From: Arcticibacter svalbardensis MN12-7
GTDB taxonomy: Bacteria; Bacteroidota; Bacteroidia; Sphingobacteriales; Sphingobacteriaceae
Direction of reading: 5' to 3'
DNA: 33,995 nucleotides
Assembly (NCBI RefSeq): GCF_000403135.1
Contig: NZ_AQPN01000114.1
Coordinates: forward strand, 1-33,995
The notes below the pieces were generated by a model. The model made no database searches, was not told the origin of the DNA, and saw only the letters and a list, made by a program, of their open reading frames with translations. A program made the position numbers and the translations under genes. Positions 1,016 through 1,864 of the stretch are shown piece by piece (the first letter of the stretch is position 1; each line of letters opens with the position of its first letter).

Positions 1016-1864
1016 TTAATTTTTATTCGTGTAATAATTTAAAATATTATATATCGGTCTTTTAATAACCGATGATATAGTAAGATTGTACTTTACTGCA
1101 ATTTTGTTTAATGTTCGCTGAAAACCATCAGCTACCGGCCCGGTAAAATGCAGTGGTAAACCAGGGTATTTATCTGTTAATGGTACGATAAAACTTTCGA
1201 AATATAAAGTAAGTCCTTTCTCTACCAATTGTTTAACATAAGATTGATCAAAGTGTTCAATTAAAAAGTCATTATAAGAACTTAAAAATAACACTGGACT
1301 TGCCTGCTTGTAAATCTTCTCCAGGATCAACTTTCTATCGGGTTTGTATCGTTCTACAAATATAGCTTCAAAATCCTTAGGCATTGTCCCCGTAAAGTAA
1401 TCACGTAATAAATTTCTTCCCAACCAGTTCGAAGATCCCTCATCAGCAAGGATATAACCCATGCCATAGTTGTTTTCTTTTACCTTTTTACCATCAAAGT
1501 AAGCCGCGTTAGAGCCGCTGCCAAGAATACCTACAATAGCAGGCTGATCTCCGCAGGTTGCCAATGCTGAAGCTTTCAGGTCATGGTCAATTGATATTTT
1601 AGCATTCTTGAAAAAAGAGGCAAAAGCATCTGCTACCACCTGTTGTCTTCCTTTCGAAGATGCCCCTGCTCCAAAGAAATAAATTCGCTTTATATCTTCC
1701 GCATGTGTGATCAATAGATTGTTTTTGCTTAAAATAGAGGTTATAGCCCTCCCGTCATTAAAAAAAGGATTAATGCCGGGTGTCTTTACGTCGCCTACTA
1801 TAATTCCTTTCTCCGAAAGTTTCCAGTCTGCATTACGTGAACCACTATAAACAACAGCGATCAT
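1016..1864 (-). CDS. BadF/BadG/BcrA/BcrD-family N-acetylglucosamine kinase homologue, probably catalytically impaired
   Basis: This 282-residue protein belongs to the ASKHA sugar-kinase fold (BadF/BadG/BcrA/BcrD, N-acetylglucosamine-kinase-like). The second phosphate motif is recognisable (ILGSGSNAA, about residue 113), as are the downstream blocks [12 protein letters not shown] and FTGPVADGF. The N-terminal phosphate-1 motif, which is DGGSTKT in the paralogue at 3694-4542, reads [11 protein letters not shown] here. It lacks the Mg-binding Asp and the Thr/Lys pair, while the rest of the fold is preserved. This suggests a pseudokinase or sugar sensor rather than an active enzyme (inference). 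It sits between pfkA (2 bases upstream) and gap (4 bases downstream), so it is almost certainly co-expressed with glycolytic enzymes. It could still be a kinase with an unusual nucleotide site. Confidence 0.85.

Follow-up and report, generated by a model that had tools for sequence, protein, structure and literature searches.

Does a sugar-kinase homologue with a degenerate ATP-binding motif, encoded between the glycolysis genes pfkA and gap, still have work to do, and of what kind? The gene that raises this question, here called X, lies in a 33,995-nucleotide stretch of Arcticibacter svalbardensis MN12-7 (contig NZ_AQPN01000114.1), which we call the window. Table 1 collects the features; counts in it refer to 135 distinct full-length X proteins.

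Table 1. Coordinates of X, its neighbours and its key residues in the window
Feature	Position	Strand	Remark
X, degenerate MurK/NagK-type sugar kinase (proposed pseudokinase)	1016..1864	-	ORF of 282 aa
Degenerate phosphate-1 (ATP) motif YSGSRNA, X codons 6-12	1829..1849	-	DGGSTKT in paralogue
Asp, X codon 95: catalytic base / sugar O4-O6 clamp (MurK D95)	1580..1582	-	135/135
Asn, X codon 119 (MurK N119, sugar O4)	1508..1510	-	130/135
Asp, X codon 141 (MurK D141, sugar O1)	1442..1444	-	135/135
gap, type I glyceraldehyde-3-phosphate dehydrogenase, third gene of operon	16..1011	-	
pfkA1, ATP-dependent 6-phosphofructokinase, first gene of operon	1867..2850	-	catalytic residues retained except for one Arg to Lys change
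Nudix/NrtR-AraR-type transcriptional regulator, divergent from operon	2966..3655	+	
NagK2, intact paralogue (DGGSTKT), used as control	3694..4542	-	

Fold and descent of X

The best PDB sequence match of X was 1zbs (P. gingivalis PG1100; E 4.8e-45, full length), followed by MurK and K1058 of T. forsythia and one B. thetaiotaomicron protein, bearing out the original prediction that X keeps the fold blocks of the N-acetylglucosamine kinase family. An AlphaFold model built with 33 aligned sequences (pLDDT 89.3, pTM 0.86) contained the two-domain ASKHA kinase fold, matching 1zbs with a TM of 0.92 and MurK with a Z of 34.4 and an rmsd of 1.7 over 274 residues; specificity loop 133-138 was the most poorly modelled region. 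The chain of X opens directly with strand 1 of the kinase fold, has no N-terminal winged-helix domain, and aligns over its whole length with MurK-type chains, which themselves carry no DNA-binding domain. X is by descent a member of the MurK/NagK fold family; we withhold the name N-acetylglucosamine kinase from it, because it departs from that family in its ATP site.

Domain profiles were of little help. The X of the window had no Pfam match even at E 1, and no Pfam or NCBIfam family scored above its curated cut-off for X. Two X orthologues scored 26.2 and 21.6 against PF01869, under its gathering score of 31.5, but the intact kinases NagK2 (28.7) and a kinase of family f23 (30.5) also fell below it, so this score fails to separate X from intact kinases. 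The source genome holds two other good homologues, 29–34% identical to X: one on contig 100 (34%, motif DSGSSKT) and NagK2 in the window (29%), which begins MIIIADGGSTKTNWCL. A fourth match was weak and partial.

X proteins form one clade (support 100/100), also when the motif columns are removed. A profile of X run against 390 class-wide genomes, with up to six candidates per genome scored, revealed no X-type protein outside Sphingobacteriaceae: the X of 15 family genomes scored at least 384 bits and every other match at most 306. Position 6 of the non-family matches read (21 loci, 20 distinct genes) was Asp in 18 and Glu in 2.

Intact relatives with DSGSTKADW or DSGSTKTNW lie close to pfkA in family f23, in four of the six f23 loci read (L290, L291, L294 and L295), where the X-like kinase follows pfkA; in L290 an aldehyde dehydrogenase gene separates the two, and a similar divergent Nudix regulator is present. 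This arrangement is either a parallel or an ancestral pairing of kinase with pfkA. The trees do not show descent of X from these kinases and give no f23-as-a-whole sister of X: a clade of X plus all six f23 rows was rejected (p-AU 0.010), one of X plus two f23 rows was not (p 0.142), and the favoured grouping, X with the contig 100-type paralogue, had support of 86/94, below threshold.

ATP and sugar sites

Roles of the sugar and ATP contact residues are those described for MurK in PMC10465942, transferred to X through sequence alignment. X reads YSGSRNA where NagK2 at 3694 reads DGGSTKT, as originally noted, and every one of the 135 distinct full-length orthologues shares the loss of the DxGxT phosphate-1 pattern: Asp never occurs at position 6, Thr or Ser never at position 10 and Lys never at position 11. 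An aromatic residue, Tyr (112) or Phe (23), fills position 6. Position 10 is basic in 111/135 (89 Arg, 16 Lys, 6 His) and otherwise Asn (20), Tyr (3) or Asp (1); position 12 is Ala in 125 and Ser in 10. NagK2, on the other hand, read DGGSTKT in 30/30 genomes examined. The X of one small genome of 2.3 Mb (G068; L221/L301), which has no pfkA1, reads YSDSDGA, with Asp at both positions 8 and 10; gap is still downstream.

The losses extend beyond the motif. The adenine-stacking aromatic residue (MurK Y244) is replaced by Ala, Ser, Gly, Asn or Asp in 120/135 X, and Gly145 of the ATP site by Ala, Ser or Thr, hence by a side chain, in 111/135. The alpha-phosphate Ser (MurK S241, X position 243) is Ser in 65, Thr in 44 and otherwise any of seven other residues. 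The Gly8-Ser9 half of the motif is kept (Gly in 134/135, Ser in 132/135), as are Ser116 and Gly117 of phosphate-2; therefore a phosphate-bearing ligand, even ATP, may still bind.

The sugar site includes, besides the residues of Table 1, sugar-contacting Gly67 (135/135) and N32 (134/135). At the level of sequence, X has lost the ATP phosphate and adenine contacts and kept the sugar pocket. Two qualifications apply. The catalytic Asp95 of MurK also clamps sugar O4 and O6 (PMC10465942), so that an invariant Asp95 is no proof of catalysis in X. The N-acetyl pocket is partly variable, at positions 34 and 35, which makes GlcNAc an unsafe guess for the ligand.

We compared conservation at the two sites between X and NagK2 in 30 matched genomes, those with the best-scoring NagK2 loci returned by the search. 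Because X is more divergent overall (mean pairwise identity 0.57 vs 0.73 for NagK2), 17 ATP-only and 16 sugar positions were ranked against random positions within each protein; the p-values are guides only, as the positions were picked from the MurK paper and the sequences are related. ATP-only positions of X were as variable as random ones (p 0.37) and its sugar positions were conserved (p 0.013), vs conservation of both sets in NagK2 (ATP p 0.0001, sugar p 0.003). Over all 135 X the values were 0.42 for ATP and 0.0001 for sugar. With the motif left out, ATP positions gave p 0.57 (30 genomes) and 0.53 (all 135) for X and 0.001 for NagK2; the C-domain adenine and phosphate contacts were conserved in NagK2 and not above random in X. 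Adding shared residues 9 and 117 to the ATP set gave p 0.16 for X and below 0.0001 for NagK2, and adding 9, 117, 118 and 133 to the sugar set gave 0.003 and 0.0007.

Distribution, selection and gene neighbourhood

X was found in 128 of the 151 Sphingobacteriaceae genomes sampled and in 18 of the 25 genera. The 23 X-less genomes were called by an E-value gap alone (X at 6e-75 or better vs about 5e-52 or worse); X being missing there by that measure, it is not required for glycolysis in those genomes. The 173 X loci studied comprise all 128, seven of the X-level matches of an order search and 37 named records, two of the 173 being the truncated copy from one genome. They encode 136 distinct proteins, 135 of them full length. 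The frame was full length in 134/135 X-bearing genomes read. In the remaining one (G112, genus g19; L232) X is frameshifted after the INPF region, by a real break or a sequencing error, with its N-terminal part still readable.

For the 45 usable pairs of 203, dN/dS had a median of 0.057 and a maximum of 0.114, and the 25 pairs listed singly span 0.027–0.114; these are non-independent orthologue pairs at 78–99% protein identity, and choosing them by identity pulls the values down somewhat. By these values X is under strong purifying selection. Together with its conservation across the family, they uphold the proposal that X has a selected role and is not decaying.

In the window pfkA ends two bases before X and gap starts four bases after it, all on the same strand, just as first noted. 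Across the 136 distinct X, gap is downstream in 136/136, within 15 bases in 115, and pfkA is upstream in 130/136, at a median distance of 3 bases. The original prediction of a locked place in the pfkA-gap operon is thus supported, although it is gap, not pfkA, that X is tied to. The six distinct X without an upstream pfkA come from five genomes that lack pfkA1 and from one short named contig (L081). The five, in three genera, have X and gap only: G150, G145 and G110 (g15), G068 (g21) and G013 (g9; 76% complete). A special link of X to pfkA1 alone is thereby rejected. Because X persists in these genomes without the operon pfkA, it does not act only through the operon PfkA, and because it stands before gap in all five, gap is its constant partner. 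That constancy is suggestive only, since X may simply share the gap transcript. Among the X-less family genomes, several of them small or incomplete, 16/23 also lack pfkA1.

The reverse case occurs too. In genera g5 and g8, pfkA1 and gap occur without X, as read directly in G009, G033 and G012, and in G036 with its gap cut by the contig end. The same is seen in G026; this genome falls within the pfkA1 clade of X-bearing genomes (98/95) and hence probably lost X, and no match to the Nudix/NrtR-type regulator was found in it. A homologue of this regulator was present at 104/107 X loci with at least 2.5 kb of upstream sequence, the 107 representing 94 distinct X with some species counted twice. 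The Bacteroidetes NrtR family includes the sugar-responsive AraR (PMC4666351).

PfkA falls into two clades, pfkA1 (the operon gene) and pfkA2, and the source genome has two paralogues, pfkA1 of the window and a gene at G000:C78:16975-17943. PfkA1 has Lys at Arg243 in 37/37 rows (29 distinct), with or without X, and pfkA2 has it in 8/39 rows. We take Arg243 to belong to the fructose 6-phosphate site and R54 and K211 to the effector site. The idea that PfkA1 lost its allosteric site and X replaces it was not supported: R54/K211 changes are also found in X-less PfkA1 and in f23.

A proposed sugar-sensing role and its rivals

X is probably a conserved pseudokinase with a regulatory role in glycolysis and a sugar or sugar phosphate as its ligand; this ligand, the partner of X and its inactivity are what we infer from the features above. 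With the ATP site lost, the sugar site kept and a glycolysis gene adjoining, X probably senses sugar rather than phosphorylating it, and a sensing role is likely as far as sequence can indicate. Phosphate transfer from ATP would have been lost, and the cleft would close on a hexose, an amino sugar or its 6-phosphate. The basic residue 10 would sit where the kinase Thr contacts the ATP beta-phosphate, on the cleft side of sugar O6, a place from which it could bind the phosphate group of a sugar 6-phosphate; the prevalence of a basic residue here (111/135) suggests such a ligand, a guess from anatomy. The change from open to closed form would then regulate the operon products according to sugar supply, with GAPDH, the constant neighbour, as the most likely target, or else the neighbouring NrtR-type regulator. 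X would be an enzyme turned sensor, like the inactive plant hexokinase-like proteins or the ROK repressors. A bolder form of this proposal, that X founds a bacterial family of single-chain pseudokinases that read sugar 6-phosphate through a converted cleft and control GAPDH (or the NrtR-type regulator) directly, is one we find doubtful.

Several points count against this reading: the invariant catalytic Asp also fits residual or altered phosphotransfer, the retained phosphate-contacting residues may still admit ATP, X has no DNA-binding domain, and by E-value it is missing from 23/151 family genomes. In one rival view X is an active phosphotransferase of changed mechanism that still has Asp95 as its base. 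It would use either a different Mg site or a donor other than ATP, such as polyphosphate, ADP or an acyl or enol phosphate. Retention of Asp95, Asn119, Asp141, Gly8-Ser9 and Gly117 agrees with this, and basic residue 10 could bind another donor. However, the Asp, Thr and Lys of the motif are gone in 135/135, the adenine and alpha-phosphate contacts drift, and adaptation to a new donor should have fixed new residues in the ATP cleft, where positions 10 and 11 stay variable; we regard such activity as unlikely. X might instead, itself non-catalytic, form a complex with an active paralogue, NagK2 or the contig 100 kinase, and act as its allosteric modulator. In favour of this, MurK is seen as a biological dimer in its crystals with AMP-PCP (PMC10465942), X is present in all 30 genomes whose NagK2 was fetched, NagK2 of the window lies 0.8 kb beyond pfkA, and X is also missing from each of the 7 genomes, out of 61, that had no NagK2 at E 1e-70. 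But 12 X-less genomes of the same 61 keep NagK2 (g5, g6, g8, G026 and G058), the neighbours of X belong to glycolysis and include no such paralogue, and X shares only 29–34% identity with the two paralogues, which leaves the pairing improbable.

That X is merely a decaying passenger of the operon is very improbable. The frameshifted copy in G112, the absence by E-value from 23/151 family genomes and the pfkA and gap without X in G026 are what decay would leave, but intact frames in 134/135 genomes, dN/dS of at most 0.114 (median 0.057) and sugar-site residues that are invariant or nearly so speak against it, and the frames and the median led us to reject decay or a pseudogene as a general account. 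The sensing pseudokinase remains our preferred reading of X.

The closest known proteins, the MurNAc/GlcNAc kinases MurK, K1058 and PG1100 of the BadF/NagK group, share with X the whole fold (Z 34–35, 28–32% identity), the sugar-site residues and the catalytic Asp. They differ in having an intact phosphate-1 motif, whereas X lacks both the motif and the adenine contacts. According to PMC10465942, MurK binds an ATP analogue and its gene lies with murT and murQ, in contrast to the pfkA and gap of X. The pattern of kept residues has a parallel in plants: the Arabidopsis proteins AtHKL1 and AtHKL2 are thought to be catalytically inactive, with substitutions that spare the catalytic and hexose-binding residues (PMC3045890), a residue pattern that X repeats. 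Unlike X, these are plant hexokinases outside the NagK/MurK group, have no operon and would have arisen separately.

ROK repressors (Lmo0178, Mlc, NagC) likewise reuse the ASKHA kinase fold for a sugar effector, going by PDB entry titles in the case of Lmo0178 (inducer-bound) and Mlc; NagC senses GlcNAc-6P. They carry an N-terminal DNA-binding domain and are about 10% identical to X, which is a bare two-domain kinase fold. CggR of Bacillus subtilis is a phosphosugar-sensing, enzyme-derived protein encoded beside gap, but it has a different fold and is a transcription factor.

We found no description of X in openly licensed PubMed Central papers; as far as these searches reach, it is a family-wide pseudokinase variant new to that literature. 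If the proposed role is true, a regulatory layer of glycolysis would extend across most genera of one bacterial family, and a bare pseudokinase in a glycolysis operon would be a new place for the reuse of the kinase fold already known from plants and ROK repressors. Its similarity could easily lead to X being labelled an ordinary N-acetylglucosamine kinase, and metabolic models would then gain a false reaction. Its kept sugar pocket and degenerate ATP site make its role testable by simple binding and knock-out experiments.

Elsewhere in the window, a PAS/histidine-kinase gene recognized by eye (6354-8014, minus strand) is split into two overlapping ORFs in different frames, 7076-8014 and 6354-7127. 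Both halves are in one frame in the sister genome G002 (L326), so the split is a frameshift or a sequencing error. Adjoining this sensor kinase on the minus strand at 8019-10191 are, again by eye, a KaiB-like gene (8019-8330) and a double-domain KaiC-like gene (8446-10191), in a host that is not a cyanobacterium.
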